Source of the DNA: Singulisphaera sp. GP187 | GTDB lineage: Bacteria > Planctomycetota > Phycisphaerae > Phycisphaerales > SM1A02 | NCBI GenBank assembly: GCA_945871915.1 | Contig: CAMBXO010000001.1 | Coordinates: 124,001-188,000, forward strand | DNA: 64,000 nucleotides | Reading direction: 5' to 3' | Part shown: piece after piece, positions 30,986 through 60,862 of the stretch | Numbering within the stretch: position 1 is the stretch's first letter | Layout: each line of letters starts with the position of its first letter | Notes under the pieces: generated by a model | What the model saw: only the letters and a program-made list of their open reading frames with translations | Told to the model about the DNA's origin: nothing | Database searches by the model: none | Program-made: the position numbers and the translations under genes

Positions 30986-33900
30986 ATGCGCACCACGATT
31001 TCACTCCTCGCCACTTGCTTGGCTGCAGCCACCGCTTTCGGCCAGTCGATCAACGAAATCCGCACGCAACAGACCGGTATCGACTTGGATGTCTACGCCG
31101 AAATTTCCGGGACCGCAGGCGCTGACCTCGGGGACCTCACACTCATTGTGATCGGTGGAGATGACTTTGCCATTGCGCCAGCACAAAACGGATACATCGA
31201 AGCCGTGATTCCGTTGACGGGGCAAATCATTCCAACAAGCGGCTATTTCGTTGTTGGTGCAACGACCTACTCACTGAGCACACCGGACCTCGTGAGCGTG
31301 CTCAACTTTGAAGTTGACAACAACAAGACCTACATGCTGGTGAGTGGTTTTTCCAGTTTCGAAGGCGACGATGTTGACTTGAATGATGACGGCACGCTGG
31401 ACTATGAACCATGGACGGGCGTTCTTTCGTCGGTGGCTCTTGTGAAATATCCCGCTCCCGATGGATTGACCGGCGACTTCACCTATGGCGCAACGTCCGT
31501 TGGGCCCGACGGTGGATCGTTCCCAAGTCAAGTGAAACAGTGCCCCGATACCGCTGGTTGGAAAATCGGCTTTGCCGACACTGCTTCAGGTAGCGACACA
31601 CCAGGAGTCGCCAATCCAAGTTGCACTGGCGGTTCAACGGTGGTCATGATTTCGGAACTTCGAACCGATCAGACTGGCACAGATAACGACGAATACGCTG
31701 AATTGACCGGTGATCCTGGCACGTTGCTTGATGGGCTCACCTACTTAGTCATCGGTGACGGAACCACCACCACCAAGAGCGGCGTGGTGGAGTGCATCAT
31801 TCCACTTGATGGCAAATCCATTCCTGCGAGCGGCATTTTCGTTATTACAAGCCTCGTTTCGCCACAAGATGGAATTGCTTTCGGACAAGCTGGCGATTTT
31901 CAGACCAACAAACTCATCTTTGAAAACTCAGATCATGTCACGCACCTCGTGGTCCGTGGATTTTCTGGAACCGCAACCACCGGGCAAGATCTTGACTCAA
32001 ACGATGACGGCGTCCTCAACCTCACCCCGTGGCTCTCAGTTGTTGACAGCGTTGCCAATGTGAAGGTTGCCAGCACCGGGGGGCCGGTGAAGGCCCCCGA
32101 TGTGGGCACAACCCTTGGCGAATGGACCTACCAATTCACCAACGCCGATGGTTCGCTTACGCAGATGGTCGGACCAGATGACATTTACAACCCGGGTCAC
32201 ATCTACCGTTGCTCGCCACAAGGATCGTGGCTCATCGGATTCTTTGATCCAGTCTCGGCGGGGTCCAACAATAAGGACACGCCAAAGTTTGTTAACCCAG
32301 AGTGCTCAACCTGCGGCGTTCCAGGCAGCGGAAGTTGCTTTAGCGTCCATGCAGGTGTGGGTTGCGACAAGGGTTCATGCTGCAGCATTGTGTGTGCATT
32401 TGTGCCAGCGTGCTGCGACACGACATGGGACTCCACCTGCGTCGAAACCGCTATGTCAAACTGTTTGGCTGGCGGTGCACCACCAACCGTCATGCTGAGC
32501 GAAATGCGAATTCGAGATGTGAACAACACGGTGAATGGCAGTCCAACCAATCAGTATGTTGAACTTGTTGGCACCGCCAATGCGTCGCTGACCGGCGTTT
32601 CACTGATCGTGGTTAACGATCAGGACACTGGCACCCGAGACGATATGGGTGTGATCGATGCCGTTGTGGATCTGAGTGGTCTTCGCATCAATAGCGCAGG
32701 CCGGTTCTTGATCACCGAAAGCACATTCAATATCGCAGGCGTGTCTCCGGACTACAACTGCGGTGGCGGATTGGTCCTGGATAACGACGGCACCAGCAAC
32801 GTGTACTTGGTGTGGAACAACTTTGGTGCACGCAATCTGGATCTAGATACCGACAACAACGGCGAATACGACGTTGCATTCCCGTGGCTTGAAGTCATCG
32901 ACAGCGTGTCGGTGGTTGGCGGAAGTGGCAACCCGTATTGCACTGACCTTGTCGGACCTGCAGGCGGTGCGACCCCATCGCAGGTGTACCGTTGCCTAGA
33001 AACCAGCGAGTGGAAGATGGGTGGCACCAATGTGACCGCTCCGTACGACTCGCCAGGAGCCGACAACGCAACCTGTGATCTGGAACGGCCCTTTGATTGT
33101 GGTGATAGCGATGCAGGCGACTGCTTCGTGGCCCACACCAACGGCCACTGCTTCAATCGCGGCTGCTGCGAAATGGTCTGTGCTGTGGCACCTGACTGCT
33201 GCAACGTTGCATGGGATGATGCCTGTGTCGAAGTTGCAGCCGCGACCACGGCATGTGGTGGTGGTTCGCCCACTGCGTACATCAGTGAAGCACGCGTCGA
33301 TCAATCGGGCACGGATGACGACGAGTACATCGAACTTCGAGGCGCTCCCGGCACCTCCCTCGATGGCCTTTCGATCGTGGTGATTGGTGACGGCACGGCC
33401 CCAACGGGTGGAGTCAATCCACTCAGCGGTGCTGTGGAGTGCGTCATTCCGCTCACCGGCAGCGTCATTCCAGACAGTGGATTCTTCCTCATTACGAAGC
33501 TTGCCGATCCGCCAACTGCATCCGATGACGGCATTGCCTTGGGCATTGCGGGCGATCTACAGACTCCGCTCTTGAACCTTGAGAATGGTGACAACATCAC
33601 CATCGGATTGGTGCAAGACTTCGTGGGTGCGGTGAATGACGACCTCGATCTTGACAACGATGGACAGATTGATGTGGAGAGTGGCAATCCAATCGATTAT
33701 GTTTCGATCGTCAGTTCGATCAGGACGGCGCCTGGCAGTTCGCAGGAATGGTGGTATGGGCCGCGCGTTCCACCCAACTCAAGTGGCATCGCGTTCCACA
33801 TCTACCGTTGCGATCCGGTTGGATACTGGCAGACCGGCAACGGCTACCTGCTGGATCCAGCATCACTCACTGACACGCCCGGTGCAACAAATGGCATGTG

Positions 33901-34087
33901 CCCAGTGGTCGGCAGTGCATGCTTCGGTGACGTTGACATGAGTGGATATGTGGATGCAGGCGATGCGGCCTTGGCTCTGCTGGACTTTGGTCCATGCCCA
34001 GGATGCGCACCGGATCTTGACGGAACAGGCGAAGTCGACTTTGGTGACATCGCACTGATTCTGCTCAGTTCCGGCCCCTGCGAGTGA
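30986..34087 (+). CDS. Large secreted protein: four lamin-tail-like domains, two Cys8 modules, C-terminal dockerin-like EF-hand pair
   Basis: Signal peptide MRTTISLLATCLAAATAFGQ; repeated ISELRTDQTGTDNDEYAEL...GLTYLVIGDG units; C-terminal DVDMSGYVDAGDAALALLDFGPCPGCAPDLDGTGEVDFGDIALILL. Confidence 0.85.
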   Translation: MRTTISLLATCLAAATAFGQSINEIRTQQTGIDLDVYAEISGTAGADLGDLTLIVIGGDDFAIAPAQNGYIEAVIPLTGQIIPTSGYFVVGATTYSLSTPDLVSVLNFEVDNNKTYMLVSGFSSFEGDDVDLNDDGTLDYEPWTGVLSSVALVKYPAPDGLTGDFTYGATSVGPDGGSFPSQVKQCPDTAGWKIGFADTASGSDTPGVANPSCTGGSTVVMISELRTDQTGTDNDEYAELTGDPGTLLDGLTYLVIGDGTTTTKSGVVECIIPLDGKSIPASGIFVITSLVSPQDGIAFGQAGDFQTNKLIFENSDHVTHLVVRGFSGTATTGQDLDSNDDGVLNLTPWLSVVDSVANVKVASTGGPVKAPDVGTTLGEWTYQFTNADGSLTQMVGPDDIYNPGHIYRCSPQGSWLIGFFDPVSAGSNNKDTPKFVNPECSTCGVPGSGSCFSVHAGVGCDKGSCCSIVCAFVPACCDTTWDSTCVETAMSNCLAGGAPPTVMLSEMRIRDVNNTVNGSPTNQYVELVGTANASLTGVSLIVVNDQDTGTRDDMGVIDAVVDLSGLRINSAGRFLITESTFNIAGVSPDYNCGGGLVLDNDGTSNVYLVWNNFGARNLDLDTDNNGEYDVAFPWLEVIDSVSVVGGSGNPYCTDLVGPAGGATPSQVYRCLETSEWKMGGTNVTAPYDSPGADNATCDLERPFDCGDSDAGDCFVAHTNGHCFNRGCCEMVCAVAPDCCNVAWDDACVEVAAATTACGGGSPTAYISEARVDQSGTDDDEYIELRGAPGTSLDGLSIVVIGDGTAPTGGVNPLSGAVECVIPLTGSVIPDSGFFLITKLADPPTASDDGIALGIAGDLQTPLLNLENGDNITIGLVQDFVGAVNDDLDLDNDGQIDVESGNPIDYVSIVSSIRTAPGSSQEWWYGPRVPPNSSGIAFHIYRCDPVGYWQTGNGYLLDPASLTDTPGATNGMCPVVGSACFGDVDMSGYVDAGDAALALLDFGPCPGCAPDLDGTGEVDFGDIALILLSSGPCE

Positions 34088-34110
34088 TCCACTGATTTAG
34101 AGTTTCACAC

Positions 34111-34147
34111 ACGGGCCTCGGCGAAAGCCGGGGCCCGTTTCGTTTTC
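34111..34147 (+). terminator. Rho-independent terminator
   Basis: ACGGGCCTCGGC-GAAA-GCCGGGGCCCGT followed by TTCGTTTT. Confidence 0.8.
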
Positions 34148-34150
34148 CCC

Positions 34151-35011
34151 ATGTGTGGGAACGCAAGTTATGCTCGTTGCGTGAGCGTCGTTCCACGAAT
34201 CGCGGCATTCGGCTTTGCGACTCAGCAAAATATTTGCGGCTTTGGTCGCTTTGTCCGATTTTCCACTGCCACCATGCGACACCTCGTTGGGCACCCCCTT
34301 CAGAGCCTGCGGTGGCGACTGCTGGGGCCTCAGTTGTATTCCGTTGGAGTGCTCAGTATTCCGGTGGTTGCGATCACGGGTGCGTTCATTGGCATGATCC
34401 TCTCGCTTGAGGGCTTCAATCAATTTGCCGCGATCGGTCAGCAGGATCGCCTCGGCGGCATCATCAATGTAAGTGTGGTGAAGCAGATCGGGCCGGTCCT
34501 GGCCGCGGTGATGGTGGCTGGCAGAGTGGGCGGTGCGCTCGCCGCTGAACTGGGAACCATGCGTGTTACCGAGCAGCTGGATGCACTGCGAGCCATGGCT
34601 ACCGATCCGATCCAGTATCTGGTGGTCCCACGAGTGGTTGCCTGCACCATCATGACGCCGATCCTCACGATTTACTCCAACATGCTCGGCAGTCTTGGGG
34701 CGTGGTTTGTTACGGTGAAGATTTTCGGTGTCAGCGGACAGGATTACTGGTTCTGGACAGCACAATTTGTGACGTGGCGAGAGCCGGCGGGCGGCGTGTT
34801 CAAGAGCATGTTCTTCGGCTTGGCGATTGGATTGATCGCCTGCTACAAGGGCTTTAATTGTCGCCCCGGCGCGGCAGGTGTGGGTCAGGCAGCCACGGCA
34901 AGCTTCGTCAGCAGTTTCATGGCCATCATCATGATCAATCTGGTGTTGGCGCAGTTCATCAACACGCTGGTTCGATGGGCCTATCCGAACTTGCCCAATG
35001 TGTTTGGGTGA
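34151..35011 (+). CDS. mlaE: MlaE-type ABC transporter permease
   Basis: VVAITGAFIGMILSLEGFNQF, QIGPVLAAVMVAGRVGGALAAELGTMRVTEQLDALRAM. Confidence 0.88.
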   Translation: MCGNASYARCVSVVPRIAAFGFATQQNICGFGRFVRFSTATMRHLVGHPLQSLRWRLLGPQLYSVGVLSIPVVAITGAFIGMILSLEGFNQFAAIGQQDRLGGIINVSVVKQIGPVLAAVMVAGRVGGALAAELGTMRVTEQLDALRAMATDPIQYLVVPRVVACTIMTPILTIYSNMLGSLGAWFVTVKIFGVSGQDYWFWTAQFVTWREPAGGVFKSMFFGLAIGLIACYKGFNCRPGAAGVGQAATASFVSSFMAIIMINLVLAQFINTLVRWAYPNLPNVFG

Positions 35012-35072
35012 TTCCCGCGAACCGCGTGCCATCCCCCATTCAATTCACCGTGCCTTACACTTCGCCGGCTCT

Positions 35073-35144
35073 GCGGGAGTAGCTCAGTGGTAGAGCGGCA
35101 GCCTTCCAAGCTGCATGTCGCGGGTTCAAGTCCCGTCTCCCGCT
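35073..35144 (+). tRNA. tRNA-Gly(TCC)
   Basis: GCGGGAGTAGCTCAGTGGTAGAGCGGCAGCCTTCCAAGCTGCATGTCGCGGGTTCAAGTCCCGTCTCCCGCT; anticodon loop CTTCCAA. Confidence 0.95.
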
Positions 35145-35203
35145 TTTCTGTTTTTGGCTGGGTGCGTTGATTCGATTCATGCACAACCCGTCCAACTCCG
35201 CGG

Positions 35204-35725
35204 TCACTCCTTCTCAACGACCGCCGGCACCACATGAACAGTGAGCGACGCCGTCTTGACCGGCGCAACGCCTGACTCCCATGGATGCGCAAGAGCAAAC
35301 TGCACCTGGCACACGCCAATACTCGTCGGCTCGAGAGTAAAGGTCCAAATCATTCGACCGCCCATCACACCTCGATCAATCGGTCGCGTGCTGGGCTGGC
35401 CAATCACTTTCAGCGGAGCATCGCCTGGCAGCGTGCAATTCCAGACGTAACCCGTACCGGCGTTCGCAGGCAACTCAACTTTGAAGAGATAATTGATCGG
35501 CACAGAGACTTCTCTCGAACTCTCTAGGTCAAGAACGCGGCCTTCGACTGGTTTGTCCGTCGCACTCGTTGCCGTTTCGGTGGCAATATTGCGAACGCGA
35601 TGAGTGATCACTCCCTGCTCAACCGCCCCTTGAGCCGTTGAGATTTCCGTCACCGGGCCGCTCTCCCAATCGCAAGCTGACATCACCGCGACCGCAACGC
35701 TGATTGCACACAGTCGCTTTAGCAC
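35204..35725 (-). CDS. Lipoprotein with chagasin-like (peptidase inhibitor I42) domain
   Basis: Lipobox MLKRLCAISVAVAVMSAC; chagasin-type loops ELPANAGTGYVW, GVMGGRMIWTFTL, ALAHPWE. Confidence 0.7.
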   Translation of the reverse strand: MLKRLCAISVAVAVMSACDWESGPVTEISTAQGAVEQGVITHRVRNIATETATSATDKPVEGRVLDLESSREVSVPINYLFKVELPANAGTGYVWNCTLPGDAPLKVIGQPSTRPIDRGVMGGRMIWTFTLEPTSIGVCQVQFALAHPWESGVAPVKTASLTVHVVPAVVEKE

Positions 35726-36186
35726 GCCTTGACTGCCTTTTCGATTGCGTCAAAATCCACCTGCATGCTTGGATCTTCGCTGATCCATGCGTAGCGAACA
35801 ATTCCTTTGGCATCCACCACAAAGACCGCTCGCTTGGTGACACCCTTCATGCCTTTGAGATCGGCATGCAGTGCCCCATACGCGGCGGCCATTTCCTTAT
35901 TGAAATCACTCAGCACCGGAAATGGGAATCCCTCGATCTCGCGGAACTTTGCGGCAACGAAGGGTGAATCGATGCTGATTCCAAAGATGTTGCATGAAAG
36001 CTCTTTCCACTTGGACCAGTTGTCGCGAAAGGTGCAGAGCTCCGCCGTGCAAACCGGGCTGAATGCGAGCGGAAAGAACAAGAGCACCGTGATCTGCTTG
36101 CCAAGCGAGGTTGAAAGATCAACGGGTGTTCCGGGTTTGCATGCAAGTGTGAAGGCGGGTGCGTGGCTGCCAACGGCGATGGACAT
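35719..36186 (-). CDS. Peroxiredoxin (AhpC/TSA family)
   Basis: VGSHAPAFTLACKPG, VLLFFPLAFSPVCTAELCTFRD; start at MSIAVGSHAP. Confidence 0.9.
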   Translation of the reverse strand: MSIAVGSHAPAFTLACKPGTPVDLSTSLGKQITVLLFFPLAFSPVCTAELCTFRDNWSKWKELSCNIFGISIDSPFVAAKFREIEGFPFPVLSDFNKEMAAAYGALHADLKGMKGVTKRAVFVVDAKGIVRYAWISEDPSMQVDFDAIEKAVKAC

Positions 36187-36434
36187 GGGTGGTTTCCTGA
36201 ATTTAAAGAAGCTGGGAATTGCTCCCAATGCAGTCGAGACGCTAGCAGGCTCTGGAATTCCCGGCTCGCCGCGAGATTGGATTGAAGGCCCACTCAGGTT
36301 GCTCTAGGGCACTTTTGCCATTGAATTGTGGACAAATCGTGGAAAGACAGCAGGTTGTAGAAAAAAGGAACTGGCTTCCAAACTTCGACTCCGCAGATGA
36401 CAGGCTTCCATCAGAACTCATGGAGCCACACACC

Positions 36435-37697
36435 ATGCGAATCCGCCAGCTGCTTAGCCGCCACATTCTCAGCCGCCTCATTCTTAGTCGACTCGGCATC
36501 TGCCTTGTTTCGGTCACATTGCCGCAAAGTCTGTCGTTAGCGCAATCCCCCTGTTGCCAACCGGCCACCACAGCGGGCTGTGCCGACACTTCATGCAGCG
36601 AGGTGGTGTGCCAGCACGATCCATATTGCTGCACGACTGCATGGGACCAGCGATGTGCAACCGAAGCATCCGTTCTGTGTCCCGCCTGCAACGAGCAATC
36701 CCCCTGCCTTCTGCCCAGTCCGGATGACTTCGAGTGGGAACCATGTGGTGCAGAACTCGACGACCCCTGCGGACTCGCAGGCACCACCGCGCAATCCATC
36801 CAATGGAATCGAGTACTGCACGGGACCGCGTGGGCCGGGGATCAAACGCGTGATGTGGATTGGTTCGAGATTGTGTTAGCCGAGCCAAGTTTGGTGCAGG
36901 TTGAGTGCTGGAGCGATGGGCCAATCGGCATAGCGATCATGGACGATGGGTGCCCGCCCACGATGCAGAATGACGGCCCAGATGGGTGCCCTGCTCGCTT
37001 CACTGCATGCCTTCCTCTTGGTGTGTATCGAATCGTTGTCCGTTCCTTGTTGTTCGAGCCAATCGATTGCGGTGATTCACGAACCGAATATGCCCTTCGA
37101 GTGAGCCGGTCCCCATGCACTCCAGATCGACCCGACAATGACCGCTGTGATTCGGCTCAATTCATTCAAGAGGGAGTGAACTCCTTCGACTCCACCGAAG
37201 CCACCACCGAACCCGCTTGGTTACCCGAGTGGTGCAATGAGGGCGCCGGCCTGACACTCACCCACGATGTCTGGTTTTCATTCACCGCCTCGCAAAGTGC
37301 GGTGTACCGCATTTCAACTTGCGGATTCGCTGACTTTGATAGCCGGATTGCCTTGTACGAAGCATGCGGCGAAGGAGTCTTGGCGTGCAGTGATGATGCC
37401 TGCCCGGATGGCGGTGCCGCCGTTGAAGTTGGGCTTGCGTGCGGTTCCACCTCCCTGATTCGAGTGGGTGGATGGGGTCATGGGGCCGGTGCAGAACTTG
37501 AGATTTCGGTGGTTGAGACTTCGGCCTGCAATTGCCCGGCTGATCTGGATGGTGATCGATCGGTCAATTATGCCGATGCGGCACTGCTGTTGTTGTCTTT
37601 CGGTGACCCCGGCGGACCAGCCGACCTGGACTTTGATGGGCTCGTTCAGTTTGGAGACTTAGCCCTTTTGCTCTTGGATTGCGGGGAGTGTCCATAA
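36435..37697 (+). CDS. Secreted Cys-rich protein with Cys8 module, PPC-like beta-sandwich regions and C-terminal dockerin-like module
   Basis: Signal-like N-terminus; CCQPATTAGCADTSCSEVVCQHDPYCCTTAWDQRC; DVWFSFTASQSAVYRISTCGFADFDSRIALY; C-terminal CPADLDGDRSVNYADAALLLLSFG... Confidence 0.75.
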   Translation: MRIRQLLSRHILSRLILSRLGICLVSVTLPQSLSLAQSPCCQPATTAGCADTSCSEVVCQHDPYCCTTAWDQRCATEASVLCPACNEQSPCLLPSPDDFEWEPCGAELDDPCGLAGTTAQSIQWNRVLHGTAWAGDQTRDVDWFEIVLAEPSLVQVECWSDGPIGIAIMDDGCPPTMQNDGPDGCPARFTACLPLGVYRIVVRSLLFEPIDCGDSRTEYALRVSRSPCTPDRPDNDRCDSAQFIQEGVNSFDSTEATTEPAWLPEWCNEGAGLTLTHDVWFSFTASQSAVYRISTCGFADFDSRIALYEACGEGVLACSDDACPDGGAAVEVGLACGSTSLIRVGGWGHGAGAELEISVVETSACNCPADLDGDRSVNYADAALLLLSFGDPGGPADLDFDGLVQFGDLALLLLDCGECP

Positions 37698-37790
37698 CCA
37701 GCGATTGAGGTGGCCATCCTTCGAAAAACTTGGAAGAATCAGAGAGAATTCAATTCCGGATTGTGTGCGGTGTACGGATAGACTCGCGGA

Positions 37791-39611
37791 ATGTCAGTTT
37801 TTCGGTTTAGAGCTCAATGCCGTACCCGCCGCGGACGGTTGATTCCATTGGCAGTGTGGCTGCTGTGTGCAGCGACCGCCCATGCTCGCCAGACCCAGTG
37901 CAATCAGGTGCATGAAACTCCGAGCTGCGATGATGCGATTTGCAGTGCCTTGGTATGCGAATATAAGCCCGCATGTTGCGCCGATACATGGGATTCCGCA
38001 TGCGTGGCCTACGCCAACAGTGTGTGTTCGGGCTGCGGCGTGAACCAGCGAAGTTGCCGAGAGATTCATTGGGATGTTTCAGGTTGCGGCAATACGGAGT
38101 GCTGCAATTTGGTCTGCGCAATAGACCCCTTCTGTTGCCAAGTGGAGTGGGACTTTTCGTGCGTTGTCTACGCGGGTGCATGCCCAGCTCCACCGCCTTT
38201 AGAGTGTGGTGCCGCCGGCACCGAGTCGTGCAACGCCCCCCATGATTCTCCAAGTTGTTCAAATGCCGACTGCTGCGAACAGGTTTGCAGTTACGGTGAA
38301 TTGAGTTACTGCTGCAGCGAGGGGTGGGACGACTTCTGCGTGCAAGCCGCCAATTGGTATTGCCCCGACCAGTGCGCCACCATTTGCCCACTGCAGGCGG
38401 ACTTGGAAACCGAATTCTGCAGCGAGAACACAAACGACCCCGGATTTCGCTCGGAGTCGGTTGGTACGCCCCAAGCATTGACGACTGTTGACATGGTCTG
38501 CGGAACCGTGCAGGTCACCGGTACAGCCAGCGAGACGGATGTAGATGTGTATGCCTTGAACCTTACAAACGAGGACACAGACGGCGACGGCTTGGTGAAA
38601 GTACGAATGACCTTTCTTTCGGGAAGTCCCATGTTTGTTTCCCTGGTGCCGCCTGCGGTCAATGTTGCAGGCCTTGCTTCAGCACATTTGACGGTGAATT
38701 CAGACCATTGCGGCGAATCAACTCAGTGGTCTTGCGTGGCTCCAGGTCTCTACTGGGTGGTGGTCGCACCGGGCACTGATGGAACAATCGATGATGCCAC
38801 GGAAATTGATTGCGGTGGCCACCTTCGCAACTACCACCTCACCGTTGAACATGCGGCGGTATGCGGAACGCCCTGCGGCGCTTCGAGCGAATCGTGCTTT
38901 CAAGTGCACGAAGGAATCTCCTGTTCTGATCCAGCGTGCTGTGCAATCGTGTGCGGTACTCGTCCGCTTTGCTGCGATCTTGGATGGGATACAGGGTGCG
39001 CCGAAATTGCCATCGATGTGTGCACTCTTCCATTGGCTGCCAATGATGTGTGCGGCGATGCGACTCCGATGACGGATGACATCACAGCATTTGAATTGCT
39101 CACGGCAACCGCCGACAGTCTCGCTTGTTCATGTGCGGTCAGCGTGACCCCAATCGGACAAGATGTCTGGTTTGCATGGCAGCCCACAGACAATGGCGTC
39201 TATCAGGTTTCCACATGTGGAACAGATTTCGACACACGACTGCAAGTGTTTTCAGGAGCCTGCCACGCTCTGAGTCCGATCGCCTGTTCAGACAATTCCA
39301 GTGCGTGTTCGCCTCCACAAGCCAGTGTGACCAAGCCCACAGTTCGCGGCGGGTACGTGTATCTGATTCGAGTTTCGGCCGTCGGCGATCAGCGTGGCAT
39401 CGGGCAACTCTCCATTACTCCGGTGCTGACAACGCCCGCGTGCAGAGCGGATGTGGATGGATCCGGCGAAGTCGACTTTGGTGATATCGCGTTTGCGTTG
39501 CTTGACTTCGGCCCTTGCGAAGGGTGTGCGGGCGATCTTGACAACAGCGGATCCATTGACTTTGGAGACACCGCCGTCATGTTGCTTGAATTTGGACAGT
39601 GTCCGCAGTGA
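37791..39611 (+). CDS. Secreted Cys-rich protein with four Cys8 modules, PPC-like regions and C-terminal dockerin-like module
   Basis: Signal peptide; four C-x3-H...CC..VC...CC...WD..C modules; C-terminal CRADVDGSGEVDFGDIAFALLDFGPCEGCAGDLDNSGSIDFGDTAVMLLEFG. Confidence 0.85.
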   Translation: MSVFRFRAQCRTRRGRLIPLAVWLLCAATAHARQTQCNQVHETPSCDDAICSALVCEYKPACCADTWDSACVAYANSVCSGCGVNQRSCREIHWDVSGCGNTECCNLVCAIDPFCCQVEWDFSCVVYAGACPAPPPLECGAAGTESCNAPHDSPSCSNADCCEQVCSYGELSYCCSEGWDDFCVQAANWYCPDQCATICPLQADLETEFCSENTNDPGFRSESVGTPQALTTVDMVCGTVQVTGTASETDVDVYALNLTNEDTDGDGLVKVRMTFLSGSPMFVSLVPPAVNVAGLASAHLTVNSDHCGESTQWSCVAPGLYWVVVAPGTDGTIDDATEIDCGGHLRNYHLTVEHAAVCGTPCGASSESCFQVHEGISCSDPACCAIVCGTRPLCCDLGWDTGCAEIAIDVCTLPLAANDVCGDATPMTDDITAFELLTATADSLACSCAVSVTPIGQDVWFAWQPTDNGVYQVSTCGTDFDTRLQVFSGACHALSPIACSDNSSACSPPQASVTKPTVRGGYVYLIRVSAVGDQRGIGQLSITPVLTTPACRADVDGSGEVDFGDIAFALLDFGPCEGCAGDLDNSGSIDFGDTAVMLLEFGQCPQ

Positions 39612-54253: not shown

Positions 54254-56818
54254 ATGCATTGTGTTCCCAACGCGTGGCTGGTGTGGTGCCGTTCGCTCTG
54301 CATCATTCCCGTCCTGTGGGTTGCCACGGCTGCGCACTCGCAACTGCAGCGCCCGCCACAGGATGAAATCATGTACCAAATCATGCCGATTGCATGGCGT
54401 GACTCCAACAACGACACCGTAGGTTCTGTCACAACGCGATTCGGAGACTTTGGTGGTCTCGCATCCACTGCCAGCCTTGATTACCTGCAATATCTCGGCG
54501 TGACCATGATCTATTTGCAACCGATTTTTCCATCGGCGGCTTACCACGGCTACCAGCATGGACCCGCCGACTCGCTGAATAGTCGCTTTGGAACTGAATT
54601 GGAATTCTTGGCGTTTGTCAACGCGGCCCACGCTCGTGGGATGAAGGTGATCCTGGACTTTGTGGCCTATGGAATCAGCCAGAACAGCCTTTGGTTTCAA
54701 TCCGCGTTTGGCAACCCAGCAAGTGTCTATGGCTCGTGGCTTGCGTTTACCAATGCAGGCAAGACCGAGTATGTGGGTTCGCAATACAACACTTGGAATG
54801 GCTCGCAAGTTGGTTTCATTCATTGGAACCTGGACAATGCGGCAGTGGTTGACTTGGTCACCAACTGGGCAAAGAAGTGGCTTGATCCCAACGGTGACGG
54901 CAACACGAGCGATGGCGTGGATGGATTTCGACTGGATCATGCATGGGCAAGCGGTGGTGAGGGTTGGGGAGCCAATATTTCCTTTTGGGAAAAGTGGTGT
55001 TCGTCTCTGCGGGCTTTGAAGCCCGAAGTCTTCCTGTTCTGCGAAGCATCGGACTGGGGCAATTATGGAACGGACCTGCTCACACCGAACGCCTTTGATG
55101 CGGTGATCACCAAGCCACTTGAATTTTCGATTCGCAATGCAGTCACGGCCCGCAATGCGTCCGGGCTCTCTTCCACCATCGCAACGACGGTCGCCGCCAT
55201 TCCTATTGGCAAGCTTGCGGTCGCCGAATCCAATGACCACGATTCCGACCGACTGGCGTCTGTGTTTTCCAGCAACAATGCTCGACAAAAAGTCGCCGCC
55301 GCCGTTTTATTGACCCTTCCATTTCCGCCCAATATTTATTACGGCGACGAAATTGGCATGAAGGGATCCAAGGCAAGTGTGGGAAGTGACGCCAACGACA
55401 TTCCGATGCGAGAACCCTTTAAGTGGAATGCCGTGGCTGGCGCACCCATGTCCAACTACCCGGCGCTGGCAATCTCCCCGCAGCCTCCTACTTCATCCGC
55501 AAACAATGATGGCCGAAGTGTTCCCGAACAGAAAGGTGTATCGGGTTCCATCTTGGAGACCTATCGATCCCTGATCGCGGTCCGCAAGGCCAGTGTGGCT
55601 CTTCGCCGCGGGTCGTACACAGCGGTGTCGTGCTCGGACAGTGCGGTGCTTGCCTTTGTCCGTCACGATGCTTCGGAAACGGTAATCGTGGCCATCAGCC
55701 TTGCGTCGTCAAGTGTGAATGCAACGCTTAATCTCAGCGGATTCACGCTTCCGACTGGCGGAGCGATTCCAACAAGCCTTGAGAACGGGCAACCGCTCAT
55801 AGCCATCACACAGGCGAATCAGGCGGCGTATCCAATTCAACTCGATGCTCGTTCGTGGTTTATTGGCCGGGCAAGTCTCTCAACGCCCGAAGTAAGTTCA
55901 CACGCCGATATTGATGGGCTGAATCTTCTTACGGATGCGGGAGCGAATGCAACGCTGGCTTCACAGAGTTGTTTGTCCATCTTCGGCGACAATGTTGGTG
56001 AATTGAATCAGCTGTTGGTTCGACGCGACGAAGATGCGATACGCGTTTCGATTTCTGGAAACTTGCCACAGAACGCCACCGCGCTCACGCTCTTCATCGA
56101 TACCGATCCGGGAGCAAGCCTTGGGCAGAATCCACTTCGCACAAACCATCTTGCTTCACCTCCAGGCGGCCTTGCCGAACTTCATGGCCTCGCCTTTGAC
56201 AGCGGCTTCGACCCCGATCTGATGTACTTCGTCAATGCGCCGGGATCCATCATGTTTGTGGATTCAATCAACCTGCCAGACGCTTCGCTGGCCGTCAAGG
56301 ATTATCGCGGAGCATGCGCGGTCAATGGCGGACGCGGAGTTCTAAGTGGCGGCGTCAACACCAACAATCTTGAAGTGGCTTTGAACAACACCAATACGGC
56401 TGGCATCACCGCGTCGAGTGTGGCCAATGCTTCCACCGCCACCAATGGATTTGAATTTCGAATTCCGCTGGTTGAACTTGGCCTTGCCAGTGATCACCAA
56501 GGTGAGATCGGCCTTGCGGCGTGCCTTGTGCGATCCAACGGGTCCGTGACCAATCAGTGGCTGCCTGGGGTTCCGGCTGGCACCTCGGAACTCGGCCTTG
56601 CGCCCACCATGCAAACGGTCGCAGGAGTGCAGTACGCGCTGGTCTCCATTACCACCAACGTGGATGGCGACCTTGATGGCAGCGGCGCCGTCGACTCTGG
56701 CGACATCGCTCTGATCCTTCTTGACTTTGGTCCGTGCAGTGAGTGCAGCAGCGATTTCGATCAAAACGGATCGGTCGACTTTGGTGATGTCGCTCTGGCG
56801 CTCCTGATGTTTGGCTGA
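54254..56818 (+). CDS. Secreted GH13 alpha-amylase-family glycoside hydrolase with C-terminal dockerin-like module
   Basis: QIMPIAWRDSNNDTVG, DGFRLDHAW (nucleophile region), EVFLFCEASDW, ESNDHDSDR; C-terminal DGDLDGSGAVDSGDIALILLDFGPCSECSSDFDQNGSVDFGDVALALLMFG. Confidence 0.9.
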   Translation: MHCVPNAWLVWCRSLCIIPVLWVATAAHSQLQRPPQDEIMYQIMPIAWRDSNNDTVGSVTTRFGDFGGLASTASLDYLQYLGVTMIYLQPIFPSAAYHGYQHGPADSLNSRFGTELEFLAFVNAAHARGMKVILDFVAYGISQNSLWFQSAFGNPASVYGSWLAFTNAGKTEYVGSQYNTWNGSQVGFIHWNLDNAAVVDLVTNWAKKWLDPNGDGNTSDGVDGFRLDHAWASGGEGWGANISFWEKWCSSLRALKPEVFLFCEASDWGNYGTDLLTPNAFDAVITKPLEFSIRNAVTARNASGLSSTIATTVAAIPIGKLAVAESNDHDSDRLASVFSSNNARQKVAAAVLLTLPFPPNIYYGDEIGMKGSKASVGSDANDIPMREPFKWNAVAGAPMSNYPALAISPQPPTSSANNDGRSVPEQKGVSGSILETYRSLIAVRKASVALRRGSYTAVSCSDSAVLAFVRHDASETVIVAISLASSSVNATLNLSGFTLPTGGAIPTSLENGQPLIAITQANQAAYPIQLDARSWFIGRASLSTPEVSSHADIDGLNLLTDAGANATLASQSCLSIFGDNVGELNQLLVRRDEDAIRVSISGNLPQNATALTLFIDTDPGASLGQNPLRTNHLASPPGGLAELHGLAFDSGFDPDLMYFVNAPGSIMFVDSINLPDASLAVKDYRGACAVNGGRGVLSGGVNTNNLEVALNNTNTAGITASSVANASTATNGFEFRIPLVELGLASDHQGEIGLAACLVRSNGSVTNQWLPGVPAGTSELGLAPTMQTVAGVQYALVSITTNVDGDLDGSGAVDSGDIALILLDFGPCSECSSDFDQNGSVDFGDVALALLMFG

Positions 56819-59341: not shown

Positions 59342-60841
59342 TCAACCGCAGTTGCTCGAATAAACGCCTCCGGCGCCGTCAGAGAAGTAGTCGCAGGTCC
59401 CATCGTTTCCAAGAAACGTTCCGCTCGGAAGGTAATTGGTTGATGTCTCCTCGTATGTGCCGCAGGTCCCGTCGGCGTAGATCGTGGTTGTCGATGTGCC
59501 GACCTGCCAATCGATCCCGCCCACCACCACCGTGATTGACCATGAGCTGCCTGAAATCATGGTTCCGTACGCAGGGCATGAAATGGTGTCCGTGTAGTAA
59601 CTGCCAGCGCCATCCGAGTAATAGTTCGAATTGCTATCGCTTCCGAGGAGCGTGCCGTAGGGCAGATACTCGGTCGAGGAGAGGTCGTACGAATTGCAGT
59701 TACCGTCAGCAAACGTGGTCGTGTAGTACGTGCCGACCAACCAATCCATACCGATCACGTTGATAAAGATTCCGTTGCTTGTGGACGAAATCACGGTACC
59801 CGAGCTGGGGCATCCAATCGGAACCGTGTAGTACCACCCATTGCCGTCCGAGTAGTAGTCGTAGATGCCATCCGAGCCCAGAATGGTGCCGTATGGCAAC
59901 CACTCATATTGCGTTGCCTCGCGTGTGCCGCACTCGCCGTCCGTCTCAGCCACCACGACTTCGTCTCCAACTGTCCATGTATACATGCCATTGACAGTCA
60001 CGGTGACCTCTGTTCGGGAGATCTCCTCCATCACCTGGCCGGCTGGTGGACAGGTGCGAATCGCAACATAGCCGCCTGTTCCGTTGGAGAGAAAGCTCCA
60101 CCCGTCACAGGATCCAATCTGGGTTCCAAAGGGCGTGTAGTGCGGATTGATCGGCCATCCCCAGTAAAGACCGCATTGACCGTCGTGATACTGGATTCGA
60201 ACAGCGCGACCCACCGTGTACGTTTCCCCGCAGTCACCCTCTGATGGGGTGACCGTGATCGCAAATGAGCGGTCTACCGCGGCAATTGTTTTTTCGGCCG
60301 GGCATGGGTTCGGCGGCGTTGTGGGTCCAGTGAAGTAGGCGCAGTTTCCGTCCGCGTAGTACGTGAACTGTGCATCGACGCGGATGGTGGTCCCGTAGTC
60401 GTAACACACTGACTGGTAGTTCGAGTTGAAAGTCGTGCACTCTCCGTCGGGCGACGACGAAGTGAATCGCTGCCAGCCAGTTGAGACGATGTCCCACCAG
60501 CGCATGCCAACGGTGAGGTCGTTGTAGAGAATCGGTTCTGGCCCACCGCTTGCCACGACTGAACCCCACGCCGGACATGGGTTGTCGCCCGGTCCTTCGG
60601 GGCAGGCGCCGAAGTCGAGCAGCATCAGCGAGATGTCACTACTGTTCACCACGCCGTCACCATCGAGGTCCGATGGACACTCAAAGCAGGGACCGAATTC
60701 GAGAAGGAGCTCGGCAAGGTCTGCGGCGTCCACCGCGCGATCGAAGTTCAGGTCGGCCGGGCAGTTAGCCGTCTGGGCGCTGGCCAGTGACTGGATGAAT
60801 CCGGCGGCGATGGTGATGACAAATAAGCAGAGCTTGTTCAA
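59342..60841 (-). CDS. Secreted protein with N-terminal dockerin-like module and five tandem ~80-aa repeats
   Basis: Signal peptide MNKLCLFVITIAAGFIQSLASAQ; NCPADLNFDRAVDAADLAELLLEFGPCFECPSDLDGDGVVNSSDISLMLLDFGACP; repeats CPxxGTxI...DGxCGT...YLPYGTxLGSD...YYSDGxGxYY. Confidence 0.85.
   Translation of the reverse strand: MNKLCLFVITIAAGFIQSLASAQTANCPADLNFDRAVDAADLAELLLEFGPCFECPSDLDGDGVVNSSDISLMLLDFGACPEGPGDNPCPAWGSVVASGGPEPILYNDLTVGMRWWDIVSTGWQRFTSSSPDGECTTFNSNYQSVCYDYGTTIRVDAQFTYYADGNCAYFTGPTTPPNPCPAEKTIAAVDRSFAITVTPSEGDCGETYTVGRAVRIQYHDGQCGLYWGWPINPHYTPFGTQIGSCDGWSFLSNGTGGYVAIRTCPPAGQVMEEISRTEVTVTVNGMYTWTVGDEVVVAETDGECGTREATQYEWLPYGTILGSDGIYDYYSDGNGWYYTVPIGCPSSGTVISSTSNGIFINVIGMDWLVGTYYTTTFADGNCNSYDLSSTEYLPYGTLLGSDSNSNYYSDGAGSYYTDTISCPAYGTMISGSSWSITVVVGGIDWQVGTSTTTIYADGTCGTYEETSTNYLPSGTFLGNDGTCDYFSDGAGGVYSSNCG
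59345..60577 (-). repeat. Five tandem ~80-aa protein-level repeats within the 59342-60841 gene
   Basis: Units start at CPAWGSVV, CPAEKTIA, CPPAGQVM, CPSSGTVI, CPAYGTMI; the last two are 78 aa each and clearly alignable. Confidence 0.8.
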
Positions 60842-60862
60842 CTTCGTTGCTCCTTCGAGGAT

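Follow-up and report, generated by a model that had tools for sequence, protein, structure and literature searches.

A widespread cysteine-rich domain of exported-looking planctomycete proteins, of myxobacteria and of phage structural gene clusters, unnamed in Pfam-A, NCBIfam and the PDB

We describe a short cysteine-rich module that occurs seven times in three neighbouring planctomycete proteins and is a real, widespread domain, unnamed in Pfam-A, NCBIfam and the PDB. The reading that we favour, and hold to be reasonably probable, is that of an undescribed, autonomous extracellular domain of about 45-50 residues, built of three short disulfide-held helices and serving as a brick for binding or scaffolding. 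The domain is new as a family and ordinary as a kind. Copies in two bacterial phyla and in phage structural clusters run into the hundreds, yet the domain is absent from Pfam, NCBIfam and the PDB; in Planctomycetota and Myxococcota this deprives many large secreted proteins of an annotation that a name would supply. The interest of the family rests on its size, its presence in phages and a swap of cysteines, while its function is something we infer.

A six-frame scan of the window (the whole 64-kb stretch of DNA analysed) confirmed every copy reported by the first-pass annotation at its place on the + strand (7/7) and revealed no eighth copy anywhere in the 64 kb. The modules are distributed over three neighbouring, exported-looking + strand ORFs, here called proteins A, B and C, each of which opens with a signal-peptide-like stretch, as judged by eye from the sequence, in keeping with their earlier description as exported proteins. 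The features are as follows.

30986..34087, + strand: protein A (1033 aa, ORF list); signal-peptide-like N-terminus, two modules, C-terminal dockerin-like domain
32336..32464, + strand: module 1, in protein A
33122..33256, + strand: module 2, in protein A
33920..34084, + strand: dockerin-like domain of A (own HMM, 68.3 bits)
36435..37697, + strand: protein B; signal-peptide-like N-terminus, one module, PF23759 domain, dockerin-like domain
36552..36680, + strand: module 3, in protein B; adjoins the signal-peptide-like stretch, starts with CC, lacks the His
37533..37694, + strand: dockerin-like domain of B (own HMM, 71.2 bits)
37791..39611, + strand: protein C (606 aa); signal-peptide-like N-terminus, four modules, C-terminal dockerin-like domain
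37899..38027, + strand: module 4, in protein C
38055..38183, + strand: module 5, in protein C
38229..38363, + strand: module 6, in protein C
38895..39023, + strand: module 7, in protein C; the copy used for structure prediction
39441..39605, + strand: dockerin-like domain of C (own HMM, 72.9 bits)

For module 3 the position given earlier was right but the string was not: one cysteine had been dropped, the true start being CC at 36552, and Ala replaces the His. The probable start of protein B is the ATG at 36435, the mechanical ORF beginning at a TTG at 36282; its PF23759 match has an E-value of 1.1e-6 in Pfam. Protein A matches no Pfam or NCBIfam family; by eye it contains about four repeats of an LTD-like stretch (E-[ILM]-R...), for which the Pfam LTD model gave no match. 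Orthologs of protein C within the genus share 40-47% identity and keep the module cysteines and WD pairs, with the exception of C18 of module 4, which varies.

The consensus of 76 copies from many genomes reads GxCxxxHxxPGCxDxxCCxxVCxxDPxCCxxxWDxxCxxxAxxxC; this 76-row alignment adds further genomes and excludes one sequence with an unread base (codon GTN) and one less typical copy. The module had been counted as having eight cysteines, but its usual core has nine (positions 3, 12, 17, 18, 22, 28, 29, 37 and 45), and a further cysteine in the linker is frequent. Besides the cysteines, the seven window copies have V21, W33, D34 and A41 in common, and the alignment, whose failure outside the cysteines had been set as a refutation check, holds at these conserved positions over about 50 columns. 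With the 76 rows as input, AlphaFold2 confidently predicts module 7 to be a three-helix mini-fold (pLDDT 89.7, pTM 0.68), with helices at residues 15-24, 27-30 and 35-44, and also with a bridge that involves residues 7 and 33. The prediction for full-length protein C, made from six sequences, was too poor for use (pLDDT 60.7).

The first-pass annotation did not recognise the module as a named domain, and a profile hit to one had been set as the other refutation check; searches of sequence and structure collections yielded no such hit. Against Pfam-A there was no consistent match across module copies, only single-member matches at E 0.06-0.2; none of the 76 modules matched any NCBIfam model at E<=1; and no module match was found among PDB sequences or, by tblastn, among phage and plasmid records. 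The motif was not found described in the literature searched. Foldseek returned 0 matches at E<=10 for the predicted module against the PDB, at a sensitivity limited by the query of about 50 residues, and nothing significant against BFVD (best E 1.5; hits partly to uncultured-virus proteins). This absence of a structural match may be taken as weak evidence for a new fold; a name would also make the domain a well-defined target when a first structure is sought.

Several known families invite comparison. The small disulfide-rich extracellular repeats of the EGF and thrombospondin type 1 kinds are short, cysteine-rich, repeated and mixed with many partner domains. The module resembles them in all these respects, but it has another cysteine pattern and an all-helical predicted fold and gave no profile or fold match. 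TIGR02232 (myxo_disulf_rpt) and PF13948 (DUF4215) are likewise cysteine-rich repeats of bacterial proteins, and each matches 2 of 58 planctomycete carriers. They differ from the module, however, as shown by the blank NCBIfam search and by the absence of DUF4215 from the 10 Pfam families listed, and membership was rejected because no profile match covers the module. The phospholipase A2 motif is CC-x2-HD-x-C, to which the CC-x3-WD-x2-C of the module bears a superficial likeness. We rejected this link too, since Trp replaces the catalytic His in essentially all copies and no Pfam, PDB-sequence or PDB-fold match exists.

The window genome (2.24 Mb) contains 13 module matches in eight proteins: A, B and C; paralogs of 778 and 813 aa, which end in dockerin-like domains; two FG-GAP-type proteins, one of them cut by the contig end; and one subtilase-like protein with one normal and one divergent module. 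All 15 other searched genomes of the genus have the module, and a relative in the window's family has 76 matches. In the phylum survey (E<=1e-4), the module was found in 12 of 294 genomes of Planctomycetota, each of them one of the 14 listed for the family of the window, and in 50 of 189 genomes of Myxococcota; the samples of Bacteroidota (1/198) and Pseudomonadota (1/200) each yielded just the genome that had served as entry point. Scanning a genome collection by DNA pattern gave at least 115 stretches. To the genus belongs the public contig VGYX01000002.1 of a lake MAG, whose module sequence is the same as that of contig 2 of genome G006. Paraliomyxa miuraensis has 55 module matches; on its contig 72 (G320, approximately 465644-467425) six copies with identical or near-identical scores recur at a spacing of 330 bases, pointing to a recent expansion. 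On a gammaproteobacterial Wenzhouxiangella MAG contig (L027), a single module lies in a 133-aa frame ahead of a hydrophobic segment and a basic tail resembling a C-terminal sorting signal; this would reflect either transfer or a misbinned contig.

The partners of the module are domains of surface or secreted types. In 58 planctomycete carriers they include Dockerin_1 (14), PF23759 (9) and subtilase (7), and also FG-GAP, C-type lectin, LTD and others; in 37 other carriers we found Kelch, a MopE-type motif, metalloproteases and a trypsin. The module had been described as always accompanied here by a dockerin-like domain, which is true of A, B and C in the window but does not hold in general: by our own dockerin profile, of the planctomycete carriers whose 3' ends are intact 37 of 59 have the domain, as against 0 of 36 of the myxobacterial ones, grouped by record title. 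Each of these three dockerin-like ends has a pair of Ca-binding-loop repeats, of the D-x-D-x-[ST]-G-x-[VI]-D type, which can be seen in the sequences themselves and where the orthologs of protein C are aligned. Against PF00404 the end of B scored 10.6 bits (cut-off 22.9) and those of A and C were not listed, and the best NF041540 score in the genome was 19.2 bits (cut-off 29); among the 58 related planctomycete carriers, at E<=0.01, PF00404 matched 14 and NF041540 matched 8. Two other proteins of the window have a dockerin-like domain and no module, one near the N-terminus (residues 34-88 of the protein at 59345-60862, - strand) and one at the C-terminus (54254-56818, + strand).

A hypothetical cohesin/dockerin complex, the planctosome, has been put forward for the freshwater Nemodlikiaceae (PMC6461901). 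With their dockerin-like ends, A, B and C recall that model, which suggests that they attach to a partner bearing a cohesin; the LTD-like protein and the secreted proteases are further features in common with it (PMC6461901). The passages of the source drawn on here do not contain this module, and the word cysteine is absent from its main text (PMC6461901). The window genome shows a single cohesin match (PF00963, 27.8 bits against a cut-off of 24.1), at a contig end; in the genus, 3 of 16 genomes have such a match. Because all three bear a dockerin-like C-terminus, A, B and C are probably tethered through a cohesin partner to a cell-surface or secreted complex. This tether is the weakest step of our explanation, since the one cohesin lies at a contig edge and the dockerin scores fall below the Pfam and NCBIfam cut-offs.

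We propose that, once the domain has been exported, its cysteines join in disulfides, about four or five of which would hold three short helices around an invariant Trp; C22-C29 is the one pairing assigned. The core would stay fixed while the variable surface would meet protein or glycan partners outside the cell, making the domain a binding or scaffold brick comparable to the EGF- or thrombospondin-type modules of animals. A fixed core with a variable surface leads one to expect high entropy at non-cysteine positions other than V21, W33, D34 and A41, and this is the pattern observed, most non-cysteine positions except these four having high entropy. Naming the domain would make outer-surface construction by these bacteria a testable question.

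The module could instead be a passive spacer, a rigid, protease-resistant, disulfide-locked link devoid of specific binding. Tandem arrays of 14-17 copies (L019 and L066) and the great diversity of partner domains would suit such a role; in L019, the relative with 76 matches, 14 modules follow one another in a single protein. However, many single copies lie just past a signal-peptide-like stretch or at the extreme C-terminus, where there is nothing to separate, and modules at the same position are conserved between species beyond the core. Their non-cysteine identity across species is 0.39-0.42, versus 0.24-0.33 for modules at different positions, and this greater likeness implies that the duplications predate the species split. 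We regard the spacer reading as unlikely. Less likely still is a role in protease control, in which the module would serve secreted proteases as prodomain, inhibitor or substrate-docking part: a subtilase is present in 7 of the 58 planctomycete carriers, metalloproteases and a trypsin occur among the others, and the subtilase-like protein of the window genome has its two modules before the catalytic domain, but most carriers have no detected protease domain.

The cysteines behave like disulfides in the way they are lost. Of the 333 copies that could be used, 324 have both C22 and C29, 8 have lost the two together and 1 is discordant. The paired losses include L059, L131 and L099, which look separate, and a subtilase subfamily that holds several of them, so they do not amount to eight independent events. 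C17+C18, mostly planctomycete, alternate with C4+C20, mostly myxobacterial: 127 of 227 complete copies have C17+C18 only and 42 have C4+C20 only. Such alternation is the trace expected if disulfides had been swapped, and the two layouts offer a natural experiment in the rewiring of a disulfide framework. Of the two suggestions made by the first-pass annotation, disulfide locking is supported by the paired loss of cysteines, and metal binding is not supported. A metal ion held by Cys, His and Asp was suggested by the paired CC and the His and Asp of most window copies; yet His7, also named as a module feature, is present in just 44% of 289 unique copies, with Asn in 18% and other residues elsewhere, the paired loss of cysteines fits disulfides, and the export-type N-termini suggest an oxidising compartment. 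We rejected metal binding on the variability of the His and consider it very improbable.

A chance or low-complexity cysteine pattern without homology, such as arises easily among cysteine-rich sequences, has a negligible probability and is already contradicted by shuffling (0 full module matches in 30 shuffles of the window; 0.07 CC-x3-W-x3-C cores per shuffle; 4 exact matches of a DNA-level pattern in the window versus 0 in 100 shuffles), by the conservation of V, W, D and A outside the cysteines, by the control phyla with their seed genomes alone, by the confident predicted fold and by dN/dS. The last was 0.057 in the modules versus 0.088 outside them in L139/L140, the single close ortholog pair for which it is usable, more distant pairs being saturated at synonymous sites; in that pair the modules are under strong purifying selection.

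A scan of viral contigs gave 17 stretches. Matches at E<1e-6 are encoded by 12 of them, which include three pairs with the same module sequence; L179/L170 are putatively viral. L175 and L167 are T4-like, with genes in the order portal, two smaller genes, a large two-module protein, head maturation protease and scaffold.

L175, 6805-10713: module protein, between the portal and head maturation protease genes; it also bears an RCC1-like propeller
L167, 3047-5275: module protein, between the portal and head maturation protease genes

A head-tail adaptor gene lies on contig L178. The place of the module proteins in the head gene cluster suggests that they are part of the virion. Phage proteins are synthesised in the cytoplasm, and disulfide formation is not normal there, which counts against an explanation by extracellular disulfides. 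A broader reading, possible but doubtful in our judgement, is that one planctomycete family, myxobacteria and T4-like phages have in common a new extracellular domain family whose disulfide-rich helical fold is also new; it would be a recognition module of general use, on virions as well as on cell surfaces, and hosts and phages would have passed it to one another. On another viral contig of 61.7 kb (L023, 3-3875), a 1290-aa cysteine-rich protein has one clear module and what looks by eye like a second, divergent one, and its neighbours match phage exonuclease and HNH families.
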